Origin: Cyanobium sp. CH-040
Lineage (GTDB): Bacteria; Cyanobacteriota; Cyanobacteriia; PCC-6307; Cyanobiaceae
Reading direction: 5' to 3'
DNA: 64,000 nucleotides
NCBI RefSeq assembly: GCF_024346135.1
Contig: NZ_JAGQCJ010000004.1
Coordinates: forward strand, 1-64,000
This document shows, piece after piece, positions 26,452 to 35,659 of the stretch. Position numbers and translations under genes: made by a program. Numbering within the stretch: position 1 is the first letter of the stretch; every line of letters starts with the position of its first letter. The notes under the pieces are model-generated. The model was not told the origin of the DNA and ran no database searches. It saw only the letters and a list, made by a program, of their open reading frames with translations.

Positions 26452-26540
26452 GTTTGTCCATCATCCCGCCGGCTGCAGGCCGTTGGTTGTGGGGCAACGC
26501 GCTGATCGCCGGTAGCTTGCGAGCAGCGGAGCACCGCGGT

Positions 26541-27734
26541 ATGCAGCCCTGGCTTCCCCCTGGCGCTCAGGCCACGACCCTGGTGGCAGCGCTGGTGATC
26601 GGCGGCTGCGCCGCCCATGCGCCTCAGGCCCGGCAGCCGCCGGCGGTGCAGGTGGAGGCCATCGGTGACGCTGCGTTCAGCCCTGGGATCGAGATGGTGA
26701 GCCAGCTCTCCACCACCACCGATGTGGCGCTCCGGCCCCAGGTGGAGGGCCGCGTGGTGCAGATCCTGGTGCAGCAGGGCCAGCGGGTGGAGGCCGGCCA
26801 GCCGATCCTGGTGCTCGACAACGCCCAGCAGCGGGCGGCTCTCGATGCGGCCCGCGCCGAGGCCCGCCGGGACGCCGTTAATGCCCAGCGCTACACCTTC
26901 CTGCAGCAGCGGGGCGCGGTGTCTGCCCGGGAACGGGACTTCTATGTGACCCAGGCGATCACCAGCCGGGATCAGGCCCGGGTGCGCGAAGCCGACCTGG
27001 CCTACAAGGTGGTGCGGGCGCCGATCAGCGGCCTGATCGGCAACCTCTCCTCGGTACAGCTGGGGGATGTGGTGCGCGCCGGGCAGGTGATCACCGGCAT
27101 CGTCGACAACACCAGCCTCTACACCCTGATGGATGTGCCGGCCACCCAGGCCAGGCAGGTGGCGATGGGCCAGACGGTGGAACTGGAAGCCCAGACCACA
27201 CCCCCGATCAGCGGCAGCGGCCGGGTGGTGTTCATCTCCCCCTACTTCGGTGTCCGGGGCGGCCCGCAGTCCCCCAACAGTGTGCTCGTGAAGGCTGAGT
27301 TCGCGAACCCCACCGGCGACCTGAAGGCCGGCATGTTCGTGAGGAACCGCATTCTCACCAGCCGCACCCGCCAGCTCTCGGTGCCGGTGCAGGCGGTGCA
27401 GATGCAGGCCCAGCAGCCGTTTGTGTACAGGGTGGTGCCGCTGGCCCAGGTGCTGCCTGACATCCGCGAGTCCCCGCGGATTCCCGAGCTGCAGAAGCGC
27501 AGGCTGGAAGCCCTGCCTCCCACCAGCCCCGTGGTGCTGCAGACGCCGGTGCGCCTGGGGCCCCTGGAGGGCAATCGCTATCCGCTGCTCTCGGGCCTGC
27601 AGGCCGGAGACCGGGTGGTGGTGAGCAACACCGCCCTGCTGCGCTCGGGCATGCCGGTGCGGATCGCCACGGGGCCCACCGCCCCGCCGACGTCCCCGCC
27701 GCCAGCCACGAAACCTGCGCGTACTGCCGGATAG
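26541..27734 (+). CDS. RND efflux periplasmic adaptor, first module (lipoprotein)
   Basis: 397 residues. The N-terminus is a lipoprotein signal with lipobox 'VIGGC' (Cys about residue 22). The adaptor core shows the paired lipoyl halves ('TTDVALRPQVEGRVVQILVQ' with 'GQRVEAGQPILVLD', and 'AYKVVRAPISGLIGNLSSVQ'), separated by a coiled hairpin ('RAALDAARAEARRDAVNAQR'), then beta-barrel and membrane-proximal parts. The AcrA/MexA family bridges an RND pump to an outer-membrane channel. The Pro/Ala/Thr-rich C-terminus is unstructured. The permease follows 11 bases downstream. It is divergent from rarA across 89 bases. Confidence 0.9.
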   Translation: MQPWLPPGAQATTLVAALVIGGCAAHAPQARQPPAVQVEAIGDAAFSPGIEMVSQLSTTTDVALRPQVEGRVVQILVQQGQRVEAGQPILVLDNAQQRAALDAARAEARRDAVNAQRYTFLQQRGAVSARERDFYVTQAITSRDQARVREADLAYKVVRAPISGLIGNLSSVQLGDVVRAGQVITGIVDNTSLYTLMDVPATQARQVAMGQTVELEAQTTPPISGSGRVVFISPYFGVRGGPQSPNSVLVKAEFANPTGDLKAGMFVRNRILTSRTRQLSVPVQAVQMQAQQPFVYRVVPLAQVLPDIRESPRIPELQKRRLEALPPTSPVVLQTPVRLGPLEGNRYPLLSGLQAGDRVVVSNTALLRSGMPVRIATGPTAPPTSPPPATKPARTAG

Positions 27735-27745
27735 GGCGCGCCGCC

Positions 27746-30700
27746 ATGTCTCTCTCTGACCCCTTCATCAGGCGGCCGGTGCTCACCACGGTGTGCAGCG
27801 TCCTGATCGTGCTGGTTGGGCTGATCAGCATCCCCGCCCTGCCGATCGAGAACCTGCCCAACATCGCGCCCCCGCAGATCCAGGTGACCGCCACCTACGG
27901 CGGCGCCAACTCCCTGGTCACCGAGCAGGCCGTGACCAATGTGCTGGAGCAGCAGATCAACGGCGTTCCGGGCGCCGATTACATCTCCTCGCTTACCACC
28001 AGCACCGGCTCCAGCACGGTGAACGTGTTCTTCGACAAGGGCACGGACATCAACATCGACCAGGTGAACGTGCAGAACCGGGTGTCGCTGGCGATGCCCC
28101 AGCTACCCCAGCAGGTGAGCAGCACCGGCGTGTCGGTGAAGCAGACCACACCCTCGATCCTGCTGGCCTATCAGGTGTCCTCCAGCGCGGGGCAATTCGA
28201 TGCGGCCTATCTCAACGGCCTCATCTATCAGCGCCTCTACTACCAGCTCGGCCGCGTTCCGGGGGTGGCCCAGGTGGCGCTCTTCGGCGGCAGCCAGCCG
28301 GCCTTCTGGCTGTTCGTGGATCCACTCAAGCTGGCGGCGAACCGCATCACCGCCGATCAGGTGGTGGCGGCGGTGGCCAGCCAGAACACGGTCGCGGTGG
28401 GCGGGCTTGTGGGCGGACCGCCGGCCGGTGGTGATCAGCTGTTCACCTATCCGATTCTGGTGGAGGACAACGGCAACCTGGTGTCGATCGATCAGTTCAA
28501 CCAGCTGGTGATCGGCCGCACGCCCCAGGGCAATCTGCTGCGTCTCCGGGATGTGGGTGAGGCCACCTATGGGTTCTCCTCCTTCTCCACCCAGGGTGTG
28601 GACATCAAGGGCTATCCGTCGATCACGATCGGGGTCTACCAGACACCGGACAGCAATGCCCTGAAGGTGTCCCAGGCGGTGGTGGCGCTGATGCAGGAGT
28701 TCTCCCAGCAGCTGCCGCCGGACGTCACCCTGGTGCAGATCTATGACGTCGGCCAGTTCATCGAATCCGCGGTGGACGGCGTGGTGGATGCGCTGGGACT
28801 GGCGATCGTGCTCGTGCTCTCGATCCTGCTGCTCTTCCTGCAGGACTGGCGCTCCACGGTGGTGCCCAGCCTGGCGATTCCGGTGGCCCTGGTGGGCACC
28901 TTCGCCTTCATTCAGGTGTTCGGCTTCTCCATCAACCAGCTCACCCTCCTGGGCCTGGTGCTGGCCACCGGCCTGGTGGTGGATGACGCCATCGTGGTGG
29001 TGGAGGGGGTGACGGCCAAGATCGAGGCGGGCATGCGGCCCCGTCAGGCCGCCCAGGCCTGCATGGGGGAACTCTTCGGCGCCATCATCGCCACCTCACT
29101 GGTGCTGATGGCGGTGTTCGTGCCGGTGGCCTTCTATCCGGGCGGCATCGGCATCATCTACCGCCAGTTCGCGCTCACGATCGCCTTCTCCATCGGCATC
29201 TCCACCTTCAACGCCATCACCTTCTCGCCGATGATGGCGGGTCTGCTGTTCAGATCCGAGGCGGCGGGACGCCCGCGGGGCTGGGGATGGCCCATCGGCG
29301 GCGTGCTGCTCGGTCTGGCCTTCGGCCGCTTCAGCGCCGCGTCCTTCGGGCCCGGCGCCTACGTCTTCGGCCTGGTGCTGTTCGGCCTGGCCGGGTTCCG
29401 CCTGGCCTGGATCTTCGACGGCTTCAACGCCGCCTTCCATCGGCTCCAGGGTGGCTACAGCCGACTGCTGCGGGTGCTCATCCGTCGGCGCCGGCTGGTG
29501 ATGGCCGCGCTCGGCGCCGGCATCGTGCTCACCGCCTACGCGTTCAACGCCCTCCCCACCGCCTTCATCCCGGAGGAGGACCAGGGCTACGGGCTGGGCA
29601 TCTTCCAGCTGCAGAGCGGCGCCTCGCTCAACGAAACGCAGCGGGTGGGTCTGCAGATCGCGGAACTGCTGCGCGAGGAGGAGGACATCACTTCCGCAGC
29701 GATCATCAGCGGCGCCGGCTTCAACGGCAACAGCCCTGACCAGGGCCTGTTCTTCTTCGGTCTCAGGCCTCTGGAGGAGCGCTCCGGCAGCGCCCACCGG
29801 GCTCCGGCGATCGTGGCCCGGCTGAACGCCCGCCTGGGTGACTTCAGCACCGGCCTGGCGGGGGCGTCCCAGCCGCCCGCCATCCCGGGGTTCTCGGCCC
29901 AGGGGGGCTTCTACTTCCAGTTCAACGACCTCAGCGAGGGTGGGTACAGCTTCGAGGAGCTGGATGAGCAGGTGCAGAGCCTGCTGCTGGCGGGTCAGGC
30001 CAGCGGGGACTTCTCCAGCCTCTACACCCAGTTCATTCCCAGCTCGCCTGCCTTCGGCCTGAGCATCGACCGTTCTGCCATGGGGGCCCTGAACATCGAC
30101 TTTCAGCAGGCGATGCAGACGATCGCCATCCTCGCCGGTGGCAACTATTCCGGTCTCACCTATGAGGGCGGCCAGGTGCGCAACATCTATGTGCAGGCGG
30201 CCGAGAGTGGCCGCAGCCGGCTCGAGGACATCCTCAGCTACTACGTCGGCAACCGCGACGGTGAGCTGATCCAGGTGTCCCAGTTCGCCCGGGCCGATCT
30301 CACCAGCGCGCCACCGGTGATCAGCCACTACAACCTCTACCGCACGATCCTGGTGCAGGGAGTCGAAGCCGCGGGCAGGAGCTCGGGCCAGGCGCTGGCG
30401 GCGATCCAGCGCGTCTTCCGGGACCAGGACTTCAACAACATCGGCTCTGCCTTCACCGGCATCGCCTCCCTTCAGCTCTCGGCCGGCAATGCCAGCGTGC
30501 TGGTGTTCGGTCTCGGCATCCTGTTCGTGTTTCTCGTGCTCTCCGCCCAGTACGAGAGCTACGTGACGCCGGTGATCATCCTGATGACGGTGCCGCTGGC
30601 CATGCTGGGCGCCCTGGTGTTCCTGGCACTGCGCTCGATCGACCTGAACATCTATGCCCAGGTGGGGCTGGTGACCCTGATCGGTCTGGCGGCCAAGAAC

Positions 30701-31045
30701 GGCATCCTGATCGTGGAACTGGCGGAGCAGCAGCAGCGGGAACGAGGCCTGGCGCCGGCCGCTGCCGTGATGGCCGCGGCCGAATCCCGCCTGCGCCCGA
30801 TCCTGATGACCGCCATCGCCTCCCTGGCCGGCTTCCTGCCCCTGGTGCTGGCCACCACGGCCGGGGCCAACAGCCAGCAGTCGCTTGGCACGGTGATCTT
30901 CGGTGGCCTGCTGGTGGCCACGGTGCTCTCCCTCGGCGTGGTACCGCCCTTCTATGTGGTGGTGAAGGCTCTGCAGGAGCGCTTCACAGGCCCAGGGATT
31001 CCAGACCCGGCTGGATCGGAGGCCAGGGCTGAGCCGGGTGCCTGA
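27746..31045 (+). CDS. RND (HAE1/AcrB-type) efflux permease, first module
   Basis: 1099 residues. The proton-relay residues are intact: D413-D414 in TM4 ('LATGLVVDDAIVVVEG') and K984 in TM10 ('GLAAKNGILIVELAE'), matching AcrB D407, D408 and K940. The N-terminus 'FIRRPVLTTVCSVLIVLVGL' starts TM1. Two large periplasmic loops with porter and docking subdomains follow TM1 and TM7. The D414-to-K984 distance is about 38 residues longer than in AcrB; the extra length lies around residues 500-565, between TM6 and TM7, and contains two hydrophobic stretches ('PIGGVLLGLAFGRFSAASF', 'YVFGLVLFGLAGFRLAWIF'). It exports hydrophobic or amphipathic compounds using the proton gradient; substrate unknown. Confidence 0.93.
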   Translation: MSLSDPFIRRPVLTTVCSVLIVLVGLISIPALPIENLPNIAPPQIQVTATYGGANSLVTEQAVTNVLEQQINGVPGADYISSLTTSTGSSTVNVFFDKGTDINIDQVNVQNRVSLAMPQLPQQVSSTGVSVKQTTPSILLAYQVSSSAGQFDAAYLNGLIYQRLYYQLGRVPGVAQVALFGGSQPAFWLFVDPLKLAANRITADQVVAAVASQNTVAVGGLVGGPPAGGDQLFTYPILVEDNGNLVSIDQFNQLVIGRTPQGNLLRLRDVGEATYGFSSFSTQGVDIKGYPSITIGVYQTPDSNALKVSQAVVALMQEFSQQLPPDVTLVQIYDVGQFIESAVDGVVDALGLAIVLVLSILLLFLQDWRSTVVPSLAIPVALVGTFAFIQVFGFSINQLTLLGLVLATGLVVDDAIVVVEGVTAKIEAGMRPRQAAQACMGELFGAIIATSLVLMAVFVPVAFYPGGIGIIYRQFALTIAFSIGISTFNAITFSPMMAGLLFRSEAAGRPRGWGWPIGGVLLGLAFGRFSAASFGPGAYVFGLVLFGLAGFRLAWIFDGFNAAFHRLQGGYSRLLRVLIRRRRLVMAALGAGIVLTAYAFNALPTAFIPEEDQGYGLGIFQLQSGASLNETQRVGLQIAELLREEEDITSAAIISGAGFNGNSPDQGLFFFGLRPLEERSGSAHRAPAIVARLNARLGDFSTGLAGASQPPAIPGFSAQGGFYFQFNDLSEGGYSFEELDEQVQSLLLAGQASGDFSSLYTQFIPSSPAFGLSIDRSAMGALNIDFQQAMQTIAILAGGNYSGLTYEGGQVRNIYVQAAESGRSRLEDILSYYVGNRDGELIQVSQFARADLTSAPPVISHYNLYRTILVQGVEAAGRSSGQALAAIQRVFRDQDFNNIGSAFTGIASLQLSAGNASVLVFGLGILFVFLVLSAQYESYVTPVIILMTVPLAMLGALVFLALRSIDLNIYAQVGLVTLIGLAAKNGILIVELAEQQQRERGLAPAAAVMAAAESRLRPILMTAIASLAGFLPLVLATTAGANSQQSLGTVIFGGLLVATVLSLGVVPPFYVVVKALQERFTGPGIPDPAGSEARAEPGA

Positions 31046-31103: not shown

Positions 31104-32225
31104 ATGACCCGGTCTGCCTGCTGCCGGGGCGTGCTGATTCGCCGGTTGTCCGCTCTGGCTCTGATGACCGGAGGCAGCCCTGGGCTCGTGGCCTGCGCCC
31201 GCCAGCCGGTCACGGCGCCGCCAACCCTGGTGCCGGTGGAGGCCGCGCCGGTGCAGTCCTCGGCCTTCGCGGACCAGCTCACCACCGTCGGCACCCTGGA
31301 ATCGGTGGAGAAGGTCTCCCTGGCGGCCAGGGCGGGGGGACGCATCGAGCGCATCCTGGTGCGGGAGGGGGAGGTGGTGCAGGCCGGGCAGCTGATGGTG
31401 GTGCTGGATCAGAAACAGAGTCAGGCCGAGCTGGCGGCGGCCCGGGCCACCATGGAGCAGAACCGGATCGACTTCAGACGCTACGAATTCCTGGCGGCCC
31501 AGGGGGCAGCCAGTGCCTTCCAGCGCGATCGCTTCCGGGAAGCCTTCCTGCAGTCCCAGGAAAACGTGCGGATCCGGCAGGCCGATCTGGCCTTCAAGGA
31601 CCTGCGGGCCCCCATCACCGGCGTCGTCAGCGACCTGGAGGTGAAGGTGGGGGATGTGATCCGGGAGGGCACCCCGTTCACCAGCCTGATCCGCAACGAC
31701 CGCCTGCAGGTGCGCGTGGAGGTGCCCGCGGTCCACGCCTCCCGCGTGCGGCTTGGGCAGCAGGTGTTCGTGGAGGCTCCCGGTGGCGGCGGCACCCTGG
31801 CCAGCGGCCGGGTGAGCTTCGTCGACCCCAACGTCACGGCCGACACCCAGGGACTGCTGGTGACGATGCCCTTCGACAACCCCGGTCCGGACCTGCGCAA
31901 CGGCATGCGCCTGCGCACCCGCGTGGTGTTCGACACCCGGCCGCAGTTCGCGGTGCCGTTCAGCGCCGTGCGGCAGACCTCCGGGCAGAGCTTCGTGTTC
32001 CGCGTCGGTGGACTGCAGGAGCTCAGGGCCAATCCCGGACAGCTCACCGAGCAGCAGCTGGCCACCCTCCCGGCCGATGGCGCCTATGCCCTGCAGACCC
32101 CCGTGGAGCTCGGTGCCGTGCAGGGCGACCGCTACCCGGTGCTCAAGGGCCTGCAACCGGGTGAGCGGGTGATCACCACCAACCTGATCAGGCTCCGGCA
32201 CGGCACGCCGGTGGTGGTCAAGTGA
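31104..32225 (+). CDS. RND efflux periplasmic adaptor, second module (lipoprotein)
   Basis: 373 residues. A lipoprotein-type signal ends at 'GLVAC'. The family core is clear: 'KVSLAARAGGRIERILVREG' and 'DLAFKDLRAPITGVVSDLEV' form the two lipoyl halves, with 'LAAARATMEQNRIDFRRYEF' as the helical hairpin, then 'NDRLQVRVEVPAVHASRVRL' in the barrel. It is clearly paralogous to the adaptor at 26541 but has diverged strongly. It lies 58 bases after the first permease and 11 bases before the second, so all four genes probably form one transcript. Confidence 0.9.
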   Translation: MTRSACCRGVLIRRLSALALMTGGSPGLVACARQPVTAPPTLVPVEAAPVQSSAFADQLTTVGTLESVEKVSLAARAGGRIERILVREGEVVQAGQLMVVLDQKQSQAELAAARATMEQNRIDFRRYEFLAAQGAASAFQRDRFREAFLQSQENVRIRQADLAFKDLRAPITGVVSDLEVKVGDVIREGTPFTSLIRNDRLQVRVEVPAVHASRVRLGQQVFVEAPGGGGTLASGRVSFVDPNVTADTQGLLVTMPFDNPGPDLRNGMRLRTRVVFDTRPQFAVPFSAVRQTSGQSFVFRVGGLQELRANPGQLTEQQLATLPADGAYALQTPVELGAVQGDRYPVLKGLQPGERVITTNLIRLRHGTPVVVK

Positions 32226-32236
32226 GGCCCTAGCTG

Positions 32237-35200
32237 ATGTCTCCTTCCAACACCTTCATCACCCGGCCGGTCCTCACCACGGTCTGCAGCCTGTTGATCG
32301 TGATCGTCGGTCTGATCGCCATCCCCGTGCTGCCGGTGGAGAACCTGCCGGACATCGCCCCTCCCACGGTCACCGTGCGAGCCGTCTATCCCGGTGCGGA
32401 TGCCATCTCGGTGGAGGAGGGCGTGACCTCGGTGCTGGAGCAGCAGATCAACGGCGTGCAGGACATGGAGTTCATCACCTCCACCAGTTCTGCCGATGGG
32501 GTCTCCAGCATCACCATCTCCTTTGCCAGTGGCACGAACGGGGACATCAACCAGGTGAATGTCCAGAACAGTGTGTCCCTGGCCGAACCGAGGCTGCCCC
32601 AGGAAGTGCGGCAGACCGGCGTCAGTGTTCAGAAGGCTTCGAATTCGATTCTGCTTGTTTATAACTTCGCATCAGAGGATCCGCAGAATCCCTACAGCGT
32701 CGAGTTTCTCTCCGGTCTGCTCGATCAGAACCTCACCGATCCGATCCGCCGTGTTCGTGGCGTCGGCTCCCTCACCTATTTCGGCAACCGCCAGCTGGCT
32801 TACCGGATCTGGCTCGATCCCGGTCGCCTCACGTCCGTCGGCCTCACCTCGGCCGATGTGCGGGCGGCATTGCAGAGCCAGAACCGCCTGGTGCCCGCCG
32901 GACAGGTGGGTGGCGAGCCCTCGCCGGACGGCCAGCCCTACACCTTCACCGTGCAGCTGCAGGGCCGTCTGCGCTCGCTTGAGGAATTCGAGAATCTCAT
33001 CCTCAGGCGCATGGGCGATGGGTCGCTGATCCGGCTCAAGGATGTGGGCCGCGTGTCCCTCGGGGGTGAGACCTTCAACATCGGTGCCACCGACATCAAC
33101 GGCGTGCCCTCGGTGGGCATGGCGATCTACCAGCTCAGTGGCAGCAATGCCGTTGACGTTTCGGCCGGTGTGGAGAAGGTGATCGAGGACTTCCGGGCCA
33201 GCCTGCCCCCCGGCGTGAAGGCGGAGAAGATCTACGACACCACTGACTTCATCAACGCCTCGATCCGGGGCGTGGCCAATGCCCTGCGGGATGCGGTCGT
33301 GCTGGTGGTGCTGGTGCTGTTCCTCTTCCTGCAGGACTGGAAGTCGACCCTCGTGCCGGGGATCGCCATCCCGGTGGCTCTGATCGGCACCTTCGCCGGT
33401 GTGCTGGCGGCCGGATTCTCCCTGAACCAGCTCACCCTGTTCGGGCTGGTGCTGGCCACCGGACTGGTGGTGGACGACGCCATCACGGTGATCGAGGACA
33501 CCACCAGCAAGAAGCAGTCGGGACTGGGGGCCATCAGGGCGGCCATGGCCACCATGGATGAGCTGTTCTCCGCGGTGATCGCCACCTCCCTGGTGCTGTT
33601 CGCGGTGTTCGTGCCGGTGCTGTTCTTCCCAGGCGCCACCGGCACGATCTACAAGCAGTTCGCCGCCACGATCATCTTCTCGGTGGCGATCTCCACCTTT
33701 AATGCCCTCAGCTTCTCGCCCATGCTCTCGGGTCTGCTGCTGGGGCTGGAAGGGGGCACGCCCTCCCGCCGCACCTACGGCATCGGTGGCGGCTTCGTGG
33801 GCTTCGTCTATGGACTGCTGTCCGCCGGCGGAGGCGTGGTGCCGGCGCTGCTGGCGACCCTGGCCGGCGTGCTCGTCGGCTTCGCGCTCAAGCTGACCAC
33901 CGGGCTTCCCCTGCGCCTGCCTTTCGCCATCGGCGGTGCCGCCGCAGGTGTGGTCTTCGGTGGCCTGGCCAATCCCCTGCCGGTGGTGATCTTCACCGCC
34001 ATCGGCCTGCTGCTGGGCTTCTTTCTCGACCCCATCTTCGCCGTCTTCAACCGCTTCTACGGCCGTGTCGAGAGCGGTTACAGGGGCCTGCTCGGCTGGG
34101 TTCTCGACCACCGCCGCGTTGTCATGGGCCTGCTGGCGGGCGGCATCGCCCTCACGGCCGTGGCCTTCAATGTGATGCCTTCGGGTTTTGTGCCCACGGA
34201 GGACCAGGGTTATGCCATCGGCTTCGTGCAGGCTGCCGACGGGGTGTCGCTGGAGCGCACCGAGGCGATCAATCAGGAGGTGGCGGAAATCCTGCGAACG
34301 GAGCAGGAGAACGGCGTGCAGAGCGCCGCTCTCTTCAGCGGGGCCAGCCTGCAGGGCAATGCTCCCAACCGCGGCATTTTCTTCCTCGGCACCGAGAACT
34401 GGGATCAGCGCCAGTCACCTGAGCGCAGTGTCGCGGCGATCGTGGCGCGTCTCAACGACAAACTCCAGAGGGTGGAGGATGCCCGGGTGTTCGTCGTCGA
34501 GCCTCCAGCCGTGCCCGGCTATGGCACCGGGGATGGTTTCGAGCTGCAATTGCTCGATCAGAGCGGCGGTGCCTTCTCCCTGCCCGAGCTGGCCGAGCAG
34601 GCCAGCACCCTGATCCGCAACGCCACGCAGACCGGTGTGTTCAGCCGGGTGTTCACCCAGTTCTCGCCGGAAAGTCCGCAGCTGGAGGTGCTCGTGGACC
34701 GGGATCGCATGGCGGCCCTGGGGATTGATTATGGCGATGCCATGAGCACCTTCAGCTTCTATTTCGGTGGCTCCTACGTGAACGACACGTTCGTGGAGGG
34801 TCAGGCCAGGCGCGTCTACATCCAGGCAGATGAGGCTTATCGATCCACTCCCGAATCACTGACCGAGCTGTTTGTGCGCAACGGCAACGGAGATCAGGTG
34901 CCGCTCTCGGAGTTCTTCGCGGTACGCCCCATCACCGGTCCGTCTGTGATCCCCAGATTCAACCTCTTCCGGTCCATCCAGGTGGAAGGCAATGCCGCTG
35001 CGGGCAGGAGCTCCGGTGAAGCCATCAGCACCATCCGTTCCCAGTTCGAGCAGCTCAATGTGCCTGGTCTTGGTTATGACTGGACGGGAATTTCCCGCGA
35101 AGAGGTGAAGGCCGGCGCCTTGGCGATCGTGATCTTTGCCCTTGGCATCCTGGTGGTGTTCATGGTGCTCTCCGCGCAGTACGAGAGCTACACCGACCCC

Positions 35201-35659
35201 TTGATCATCCTGATGACGGTGCCCACCGCCATGCTGGGTGCCCTGCTCTTCCTTGCCGCTCGCGGTGAGGTGCTGAACATCTATGCCCAGGTGGGTCTGG
35301 TGATGCTGATCGGCCTGGCGGCCAAGAACGGCATCCTGATCGTGGATCTGGCCAACCAGCGCATGGCGGCCGGGGCAACGGCCCTGGTGGCGGCCCGGGA
35401 GGCTGCCCAGTCACGCCTGCGGCCGATCCTGATGACGGCGATCTCCTCCCTGTTCGGCTTCCTGCCCCTCGTGCTGGCCAGTGGTGCCGGGGCACGCAGC
35501 CAGTCCTCCCTGGGCACCGTGGTGTTCGGCGGGCTGCTGGTGGCCACCATCCTCTCGCTGCTGGTGGTGCCGGTGTTCTATGTGGTGATGAAGCAGTTCT
35601 TCGGCGAGGGCGGTGCCGACGCAGACACAGCCGCTTCCGCTCAGGAGAGCAGCGCCTGA
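32237..35659 (+). CDS. RND (HAE1/AcrB-type) efflux permease, second module, with expanded membrane region
   Basis: 1140 residues. Paralog of the permease at 27746: 'FITRPVLTTVCSLLIVIVGL' in TM1, D413-D414 in 'LATGLVVDDAITVIED' and K1030 in 'GLAAKNGILIVDLAN' form the proton relay. D414 to K1030 is about 84 residues longer than in AcrB. The added stretch, residues about 500-612 between TM6 and TM7, has several hydrophobic runs ('GIGGGFVGFVYGLLSAGG', 'VVPALLATLAGVLVGFAL', 'IGGAAAGVVFGGLANPLPV', 'VIFTAIGLLLGFFLDPIF'), enough for two to four extra membrane helices. The rest is normal for a tripartite drug pump. No outer-membrane channel gene is near. Confidence 0.93.
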   Translation: MSPSNTFITRPVLTTVCSLLIVIVGLIAIPVLPVENLPDIAPPTVTVRAVYPGADAISVEEGVTSVLEQQINGVQDMEFITSTSSADGVSSITISFASGTNGDINQVNVQNSVSLAEPRLPQEVRQTGVSVQKASNSILLVYNFASEDPQNPYSVEFLSGLLDQNLTDPIRRVRGVGSLTYFGNRQLAYRIWLDPGRLTSVGLTSADVRAALQSQNRLVPAGQVGGEPSPDGQPYTFTVQLQGRLRSLEEFENLILRRMGDGSLIRLKDVGRVSLGGETFNIGATDINGVPSVGMAIYQLSGSNAVDVSAGVEKVIEDFRASLPPGVKAEKIYDTTDFINASIRGVANALRDAVVLVVLVLFLFLQDWKSTLVPGIAIPVALIGTFAGVLAAGFSLNQLTLFGLVLATGLVVDDAITVIEDTTSKKQSGLGAIRAAMATMDELFSAVIATSLVLFAVFVPVLFFPGATGTIYKQFAATIIFSVAISTFNALSFSPMLSGLLLGLEGGTPSRRTYGIGGGFVGFVYGLLSAGGGVVPALLATLAGVLVGFALKLTTGLPLRLPFAIGGAAAGVVFGGLANPLPVVIFTAIGLLLGFFLDPIFAVFNRFYGRVESGYRGLLGWVLDHRRVVMGLLAGGIALTAVAFNVMPSGFVPTEDQGYAIGFVQAADGVSLERTEAINQEVAEILRTEQENGVQSAALFSGASLQGNAPNRGIFFLGTENWDQRQSPERSVAAIVARLNDKLQRVEDARVFVVEPPAVPGYGTGDGFELQLLDQSGGAFSLPELAEQASTLIRNATQTGVFSRVFTQFSPESPQLEVLVDRDRMAALGIDYGDAMSTFSFYFGGSYVNDTFVEGQARRVYIQADEAYRSTPESLTELFVRNGNGDQVPLSEFFAVRPITGPSVIPRFNLFRSIQVEGNAAAGRSSGEAISTIRSQFEQLNVPGLGYDWTGISREEVKAGALAIVIFALGILVVFMVLSAQYESYTDPLIILMTVPTAMLGALLFLAARGEVLNIYAQVGLVMLIGLAAKNGILIVDLANQRMAAGATALVAAREAAQSRLRPILMTAISSLFGFLPLVLASGAGARSQSSLGTVVFGGLLVATILSLLVVPVFYVVMKQFFGEGGADADTAASAQESSA

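Follow-up and report, generated by a model that had tools for sequence, protein, structure and literature searches.

AcrB-type pumps of the RND class follow a standard plan of twelve transmembrane (TM) helices. An RND permease encoded in the window analysed here, a 64,000-nucleotide stretch from Cyanobium sp. CH-040, raises the question of whether this plan can be extended in the middle of the protein: the original prediction gave this permease (P0001) about 84 extra residues between TM6 and TM7, and its neighbour (P0002) a shorter version. The two proteins have a conserved AcrB core. P0001 matches PF00873 (E 1.2e-302) and scores 1053.3 bits against TIGR00915, over the cut-off of 940.35, while P0002 matches PF00873 and stays under that cut-off with 880.1 bits; only P0001 is thus over both cut-offs that define HAE1. 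The top five Foldseek matches of the P0001 AlphaFold2 model to AcrB have target TM-scores of 0.95-0.96, and the scores are 0.89-0.97 among the 50 PDB matches listed, in agreement with the AcrB fold of both the TM and the porter domains. Alignment with AcrB (D407, D408, K940, R971, T978) indicates that the proton relay is kept in P0001 (D413, D414, K1030, R1060, T1067) and in P0002 (D413, D414, K984, R1015, T1022). A periplasmic adaptor (MFP) gene lies beside each of the two permease genes, as it does for most relatives with enough flanking sequence. Since the proton relay and the core fold are kept, transport is expected to proceed as in AcrB.

Features of the two pump loci in the window, with residue numbers of the proteins concerned
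Feature	Position	Strand	Evidence
Periplasmic adaptor (MFP), partner of P0002; start codon uncertain	26454..27734	+	TIGR01730, 180.9 bits
P0002, RND permease of 1099 aa, carrying one hairpin	27746..31045	+	PF00873, E 6.2e-275
Predicted single hairpin of P0002, residues 514-551 (helices 514-534, 536-551)	29285..29398	+	AlphaFold2
Periplasmic adaptor (MFP), partner of P0001	31104..32225	+	TIGR01730, 193.6 bits (cut-off 94.9)
P0001, AcrB-type (HAE1) RND permease of 1140 aa, carrying two inserted hairpins	32237..35659	+	PF00873, TIGR00915, Foldseek to AcrB
Proton-relay pair D413/D414 in TM4 of P0001 (AcrB D407/D408)	33473..33478	+	Alignment with AcrB
Predicted hairpin 1 of P0001, residues 511-555 (helices 511-529, 534-555)	33767..33901	+	AlphaFold2, block pLDDT 76-84; profile A2 match
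Predicted hairpin 2 of P0001, residues 560-595 (helices 560-574, 581-595)	33914..34021	+	AlphaFold2; second profile A2 match; hhalign with hairpin 1
Retained cytoplasmic helix Ialpha of P0001, residues 597-624	34025..34108	+	Model helix 597-624; AcrB 514-530 aligns with P0001 602-618
K1030 in TM10 of P0001 (AcrB K940)	35324..35326	+	Alignment with AcrB
Candidate partner: predicted small membrane protein with two TM helices, encoded directly behind P0001	35688..36041	+	Conservation, alignment A4

The excess length is real and can be placed precisely. The distance from D414 to K1030 is 616 residues in P0001 compared to 532 in AcrB, which makes the predicted difference exactly 84, and the distance from D414 to K984 in P0002 is 570, exactly the predicted 38 more than in AcrB. 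When P0001 was compared to PDB sequences with phmmer, the alignment stopped at about residue 508 and restarted at 599/600, the two best chains going from 503/504 to 511. The insert thus covers about residues 503-600, between TM6 and the cytoplasmic helix Ialpha, and the linker measured between these two elements is 112 residues long in P0001 compared to 29 in AcrB. The original prediction located the excess where AcrB has its amphipathic helix, but Ialpha is not replaced, as the model and the alignment, in which AcrB 514 faces P0001 602, both place it after the insert. The four hydrophobic runs proposed at residues 500-612 were also recovered, their best 19-residue Kyte-Doolittle means being 1.41, 2.23, 1.53, and 2.06, while neither of the two periplasmic stretches scanned exceeds 0.85. 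The insert is no artefact of assembly or reading frame, as it is retained in 37 distinct sequences with two hairpins, drawn from many genomes, and shows a dN/dS of 0.07-0.15 in five pairs.

The insert is built from a modular unit. Among 206 distinct permeases (213 ORFs, reduced to 208 after dropping the own-genome copies L002, L004, L005, L083, and L133), linkers fall into classes of 17-39 (91 sequences), 56 (1), 64-69 (77), and 109-114 residues (37), counts that are not frequencies given that hairpin queries served in part to collect the sample. The classes correspond to the absence, presence, or doubling of a unit some 40-45 residues long. In one set of ten loci, the anchor method used for the measurement covered six, leaving out L163, L166 (a 70-residue open frame with a stop), L167, and L168. 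A profile of the single hairpin (A2) matches P0001 twice in tandem, at 33680-33892 (model positions 1-69) and 33908-34096 (model positions 28-91). With hhalign, hairpins 1 and 2 of P0001 align over 41 columns with a score of 20.8, while the best of 83 control windows reaches 12.7; the TM-domain windows among these controls rule out the insert being an internal copy of another TM pair of P0001. Moreover, in profile comparison, hairpins from all three paralogue groups align with one another across most of the unit (P 3e-4 to 9e-16), indicating that the units are homologous.

What these units form in the membrane was examined with models, charges, and insertion energies. The AlphaFold2 monomer models (mean pLDDT 82.2 for P0001 and 79.6 for P0002, the remaining four models per protein scoring lower) contain four additional helices before Ialpha in P0001 and two in P0002, arranged as glycine-rich pairs of uncharged hydrophobic helices. 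Among the 37 two-hairpin sequences, no charge is found in helices a1, b1, and a2, and 0.17 per sequence in b2. The first two presumed cytoplasmic loops carry 2.51 and 1.59 K+R per sequence, compared to 0.00 and 0.11 for the presumed outer turns, so that the positive-inside rule is followed in three of the loops concerned. Predicted insertion energies of the P0001 hairpin helices are 1.89, -0.21, 1.00, and -0.52 kcal/mol, inside or slightly above the range of the protein's own 12 canonical helices (-2.98 to 1.27 kcal/mol), whereas Ialpha and the periplasmic domains give about 4.2 or more on the same scale. Hydropathy, insertion energies, and models together rule out a soluble loop, which appears in no model. 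These data fit hairpins that would span the membrane with both ends in the cytoplasm, giving 14 predicted helices in P0002 and 16 in P0001, and so lend computational support to the predicted change of the 12-helix plan. In the HAE1 description, the TM helices number 12 and nothing but Ialpha lies between TM6 and TM7; P0001 and P0002 are therefore classed as a variant of HAE1 and not as plain members.

Three observations count against a full-span topology: the presumed cytoplasmic loop after hairpin 2 carries only 0.27 positive charges per sequence in the 37 sequences, insertion is predicted to be less favourable for helix a1 than for any of the other membrane helices, and the hairpin 2 helices are only 15 residues long in the model. 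The hairpins, or at least hairpin 2, could instead be re-entrant or monotopic, entering the inner leaflet from the cytoplasm without crossing the membrane, and here the nearly uncharged turns, which would be tolerable inside the membrane, and the very tight turn of the one-hairpin GKPLQ type would fit as well as the short helices do. However, each hairpin has an uncharged span of some 36-37 residues, enough for two crossings, the model helices are continuous (19 and 22 residues in hairpin 1, 21 and 16 in P0002), and the insertion energies resemble those of canonical TM helices. We consider a re-entrant arrangement rather unlikely, hairpin 2 being where it could still apply, and we infer that the hairpin helices cross the membrane fully.

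The distribution of the hairpin is narrow. Hairpin pumps were found only in the Synechococcus/Cyanobium family, with matches in 193 of 400 genomes. No hairpin was present in 49 permeases measured from other Cyanobacteriota families or in 30 permeases from a draw around a Glaciecola genome, and tblastn gave no match to the insert in 72,556 plasmid records. Pumps of the same length outside the cyanobacteria, which would have spoken against the original prediction, were thus absent from the permeases measured; its mention of cyanobacterial HAE1 permeases was too wide, given that the insert turned up in a single family. In a quick tree built without the linker, with long branches flagged, from 130 of 179 measured ORFs (own copies having been removed and cut-offs on length and 97% identity applied), a branch with an SH-aLRT of 95% keeps all 86 hairpin rows together. 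As judged from these sequences, hairpin pumps form one clade, inside which no row of the tree lacks a unit altogether. In the P0001-type clade, the copy number shifts between one and two, with four changes of the two-hairpin label, three of them forced by starred branches.

Such shifts would be expected if the hairpins were nearly neutral passengers, inert greasy inserts tolerated by the fold whose copy number varies by recombination between like copies, and the insert dN/dS is indeed above that of the rest of the permease in 5/5 pairs. The values themselves nonetheless remain low and indicate purifying selection, Gly 518, 522, 526, 548, and 590 are kept in 35-37 of the 37 two-hairpin sequences, and complete loss of the unit is seen in no row of the hairpin clade, which makes the passenger explanation unlikely.

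Taken together, we estimate at about 0.78 the probability of the following account. P0001 would be the AcrB-type (HAE1) permease of a tripartite, proton-driven efflux system, with its core kept, and its hairpin, gained in a single ancestral insertion between TM6 and Ialpha, would have been duplicated in tandem and would span the membrane. The insertion would have occurred at the TM6/Ialpha junction in the ancestor of the Synechococcus/Cyanobium-family pumps, and the duplication within the P0001 lineage. From the cytoplasmic end of TM6, the chain would cross the membrane twice (P0002) or four times (P0001), re-enter the cytoplasm, and run into an unchanged Ialpha and TM7. By analogy with TMA and TMB of the MFS pump EmrB, the hairpins would lie on the outside of the helix bundle, close to where the two six-helix repeats meet, and there they may serve as a built-in brace, a lipid belt, or a docking site for a small membrane partner. 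Other cyanobacteria, whose membranes are presumably similar, do without hairpins, which counts against such a role.

RND pumps draw substrates from the membrane, and the hairpins could accordingly be elements of the substrate path, lengthening the lateral groove of the TM domain and altering which lipophilic compounds enter. The AcrB drug-pocket residues F610, F615, G616, and F617 align with A, A, S, and L in P0001, as might be expected in this case. However, P0002 has a hairpin and yet its switch loop still contains Gly and Phe (G658, F659); the pocket change and the hairpin are therefore not coupled, and we regard this function as improbable.

Of the 38 P0001-type permease genes followed by 300 nt or more of sequence, 34 have the small two-TM gene behind them. 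A small two-TM protein is also encoded behind pumps of families in which no hairpin was found.

Both the hairpins and this protein are small glycine-rich two-helix units at one locus, and AcrB is bound on its concave TM surface by the small TM partner AcrZ (PMC7267776). The hairpins could thus derive from the neighbouring protein, or from a similar accessory protein, fused into the permease as an AcrZ-like helix made permanent. Profile comparison does not support this origin: matches are short or weak, the best-scoring pairs covering 17 columns out of register (P about 1e-4), whereas matches among hairpins extend over the greater part of the unit. Besides, the protein is still encoded behind hairpin pumps as well as behind those of hairpin-free families, and we hold such a fusion to be highly improbable.

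Twelve helices have long been regarded as fixed for this type of protein; in this multidrug-type efflux pump of small cyanobacteria, the predicted outcome is one or two additional pairs of helices that cross the membrane, inserted midway along the chain. Our literature search, which mostly covered sources other than subscription journals, found no published report of such hairpins in RND pumps. The pumps offer a natural series of 0, 1, and 2 units, two of them adjacent in one gene cluster, that lets one ask what the TM6-Ialpha-TM7 seam does in coupling proton flow to drug export, and also bears on whether unrelated transporter superfamilies gain helices at the same loop. A broader idea, which we put forward tentatively and consider doubtful, is that RND pumps grow by whole hairpins, from 12 to 14 to 16 helices, through insertion of a glycine-zipper hairpin at the repeat seam and tandem duplication, as MFS pumps would have done independently, and that the hairpins and the small two-helix protein encoded next door make a regulatory membrane belt round the trimer.

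Among known systems, glycine-zipper families (Gly-zipper_Omp, Gly-zipper_YMGG, Rick_17kDa_Anti) share with the hairpins a regular Gly spacing in hydrophobic helices, but no Pfam family is over its cut-off, the glycine-zipper matches being weak (E 0.00095 to 4.2, best 19.5 bits compared to 25), and the likeness probably reflects shared composition. The AcrB/HAE1 permeases (PF00873, TIGR00915) resemble P0001 in fold, proton relay, upstream adaptor gene, and the position of Ialpha between the TM repeats, and differ from it in having 12 TM helices without hairpins. AcrZ likewise adds a helix beside the TM core of an RND pump (PMC7267776), but it is a separate one-helix protein while the hairpins belong to the permease chain. 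An architectural counterpart is found in EmrB and other 14-TM MFS pumps of the DHA2 type, where two extra helices, TMA and TMB, are inserted in the cytoplasmic loop between the six-helix halves, as the hairpins are in P0001 and P0002, and lie against the periphery of the core (PMC13139468), where the hairpins would also pack. EmrB belongs to an unrelated superfamily, and the AcrB-type hairpin also occurs doubled, giving four extra helices; the likeness is a parallel and not a kinship.

Two adaptor-permease pairs, with all four genes on the + strand, are found in the window, and the second contains P0001, a permease of 1140 residues. Judged by its profile matches, P0001 is a full AcrB-type (HAE1) RND permease. 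Alignment with E. coli AcrB places its proton relay at D413, D414, K1030, R1060, and T1067, and its AlphaFold2 model retains the AcrB fold outside the insert. At the drug pocket/switch loop, F610, F615, G616, and F617 of AcrB correspond to A698, A703, S704, and L705 in P0001 (window 34328-34360, residues 698-708); the neighbouring permease P0002 keeps the Gly and Phe of the switch loop (G658 and F659). The substrates of the two neighbours may differ.

Genes of the two pump pairs and of the small protein that follows them
Feature	Position	Strand	Remark
MFP adaptor	26454-27734	+	pairs with P0002
P0002, RND permease	27746-31045	+	
MFP adaptor	31104-32225	+	pairs with P0001
P0001, RND permease	32237-35659	+	PF00873, E 1.2e-302; TIGR00915, 1053.3 bits (cut-off 940.35)
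Small predicted two-helix membrane protein	35688 (ATG)-36041	+	directly behind P0001

The AcrB alignment shows that the distance from D414 to K1030 exceeds its AcrB equivalent by 84 residues, and that the corresponding distance in P0002 exceeds it by 38, exactly the excess lengths of the original prediction, whose observation of extra sequence between TM6 and TM7 of P0001 is confirmed. This excess corresponds to residues about 503-600, from the end of TM6 to the cytoplasmic helix Ialpha, which is retained beside the insert. In the AlphaFold2 model of P0001 (54 sequences), helices 511-529, 534-555, 560-574, and 581-595, predicted to form two hairpins, precede Ialpha (597-624) and TM7 (626-646), with a block pLDDT of 76-84 over residues 511-600. 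The P0002 model contains helices 514-534 and 536-551, then 553-580 (mean pLDDT of 82.2 for P0001 and 79.6 for P0002).

Of the four hydrophobic segments, three contain no K, R, D, or E in any of 37 distinct two-hairpin sequences; the fourth averages 0.17 per sequence. K+R reach 2.51 per sequence in the loop before hairpin 1 and 1.59 in the loop between hairpins, with 0.00 and 0.11 in the turns; judged by sequence, this distribution fits the positive-inside pattern with both turns periplasmic. The last loop, after hairpin 2, gives no topology signal (0.27 K+R vs 0.32 D+E). Insertion energies, predicted with Hessa-type parameters, are 1.89, -0.21, 1.00, and -0.52 kcal/mol for the P0001 hairpin helices. 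These values fall inside or slightly exceed the span covered by the 12 canonical helices of this permease (-2.98 to 1.27), and they are well below those of Ialpha (4.16) and the periplasmic domains (at least 4.20). Median values are 1.13, -0.80, 0.73, and 0.27 kcal/mol for the 37 two-hairpin linkers and 0.80 and -0.64 kcal/mol for 74 one-hairpin linkers, the linker being the stretch from TM6 to Ialpha. Glycines spaced by four, at 518, 522, and 526 (36, 35, and 36 of the 37 sequences) and at 590 and 594 (36 and 34), form a glycine-zipper-like face. Modelled helices, charge pattern, and insertion energies support the extra membrane helices that had been proposed, and the hairpins most likely cross the membrane fully, hairpin 2 being the weaker case.

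Linker length, measured between fixed anchors at the TM6 end (497 in P0001) and within Ialpha (609), falls into classes of 27-35 (AcrB 29), 64-69, and 109-113 residues in 98 ORFs from related loci, the same genome, and AcrB. A larger set of 206 distinct permeases, partly gathered with hairpin queries so that the counts describe classes and not frequencies, gave 17-39 residues in 91, 56 in 1, 64-69 in 77, and 109-114 in 37; the sole 56-residue linker (L075) is rich in charged residues. Profile A2, built from one-hairpin linkers only, aligns with P0001 at two tandem sites, 33680-33892 (profile positions 1-69) and 33908-34096 (28-91), and does so in many other genomes too. The two halves of the insert align over 41 columns (profiles from 34 sequences) with a score of 20.8, vs at most 12.7 for 42 TM-domain and 11.1 for 41 periplasmic control windows. 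Hairpins of the three paralogue groups (P0001, P0002, and GKPLQ types) show mutual matches along most of their length. The GKPLQ type is a sister permease type with one hairpin in which TM6 ends in GKPLQ and not in a TP/SP motif (L013, L014, L023, L048, and others); two consecutive adaptor genes precede it at several loci, e.g., L043, L045, and L048. Two P0001-type genes are apparently broken by a frame change, at L074 (5619-9304, two overlapping frames) and L040 (6001-8619, a short frame of 873 residues).

In a core tree computed without the linker (130 rows; a quick tree with long branches flagged), all hairpin rows lie on one side of a branch with 95% SH-aLRT. The three linker states need five changes; the two-hairpin label needs four (three forced by starred branches), all within the P0001-type clade, whose first fork sets two rows, both with two hairpins, apart from the rest. 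The simplest history would be that a hairpin was gained once, was duplicated once, and shrank back to a single unit several times. The insert is under purifying selection (dN/dS of 0.07-0.15, five pairs), although in each pair it evolves faster than the remainder of the protein.

The hairpin profile matches 35 of 61 genomes of the order PCC-6307 at E <= 1e-6, all of at least 2.1 Mb, the 26 genomes without a match being of at most 1.9 Mb. In the Synechococcus/Cyanobium family (Cyanobiaceae), 193 of 400 genomes match, and among 194 Cyanobacteriia genomes matches at E <= 1e-10 are confined to this family. Weaker matches outside it (8e-10 and worse) begin in the profile's TM6 flank; 20 of these loci (L143-L162) have linkers of 17-26 residues without an insert. 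A phylum draw of 59 genomes gave 29 permeases, one each from 29 genomes of other families, with linkers of 20-32. Taken with the 20 loci above, this makes 49 measured permeases of other families in the phylum, all lacking an insert. Outside the phylum, where sampling was thinner, 10 of 296 genomes around a Glaciecola genome matched (best E 1.7e-4), and the six of ten loci that could be measured have linkers of 23-36; 30 HAE1-type permeases from 61 genomes of this draw have linkers of 23-39. A draw of 198 genomes around a Bacteroides genome returned the same genomes and adds little. None of the 60 PDB sequences listed exceeds 1069 residues. Two loci filed as Bifidobacterium breve and Phycisphaerae (L037, L055) carry picocyanobacterial permeases with two hairpins and are probably mis-binned MAG contigs.

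Relatives of the small two-TM protein (located in L007-L058 and L212-L219) directly follow 34 of the 38 P0001-type permeases that have 300 nt or more of downstream sequence and 33 of 39 other hairpin permeases, five of the six exceptions being of the P0002 type. Most rows of their alignment start with basic residues; there is a TP turn, and the second helix ends in G...E..RQL. No Pfam or NCBIfam family fits consistently. The protein matches in 18 of 194 class genomes, and at seven of nine loci outside the family the C-terminal part of an RND permease lies just upstream on the same strand. Since no hairpin was found in these families, the small protein seems older than the hairpins. It is not an evident source of them, and is a candidate accessory subunit of cyanobacterial HAE1 pumps.

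With both the proton relay and the fold preserved in its core, the hairpin pump should transport as AcrB does. According to a review (PMC8277102), Ialpha links the two TM repeats of AcrB from TM6 to TM7, and these repeats rock relative to one another as the pump cycles. It is exactly this seam that the hairpins occupy, and we infer that they would act as a built-in brace or lipid belt, the reading we prefer. A phylogenetic survey names an RND permease clade found mainly in Cyanobacteria (PMC10872679); its text never mentions insertion, transmembrane, or Synechococcus. Among known systems, 14-helix MFS pumps such as EmrB, in which two additional helices (TMA, TMB) are inserted into the cytoplasmic loop that connects the six-helix halves (PMC13139468), are a parallel and not kin. 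A second parallel is AcrZ, a separate helix that lies on the TM surface of AcrB, on its concave side, and has an effect on some substrates (PMC7267776).
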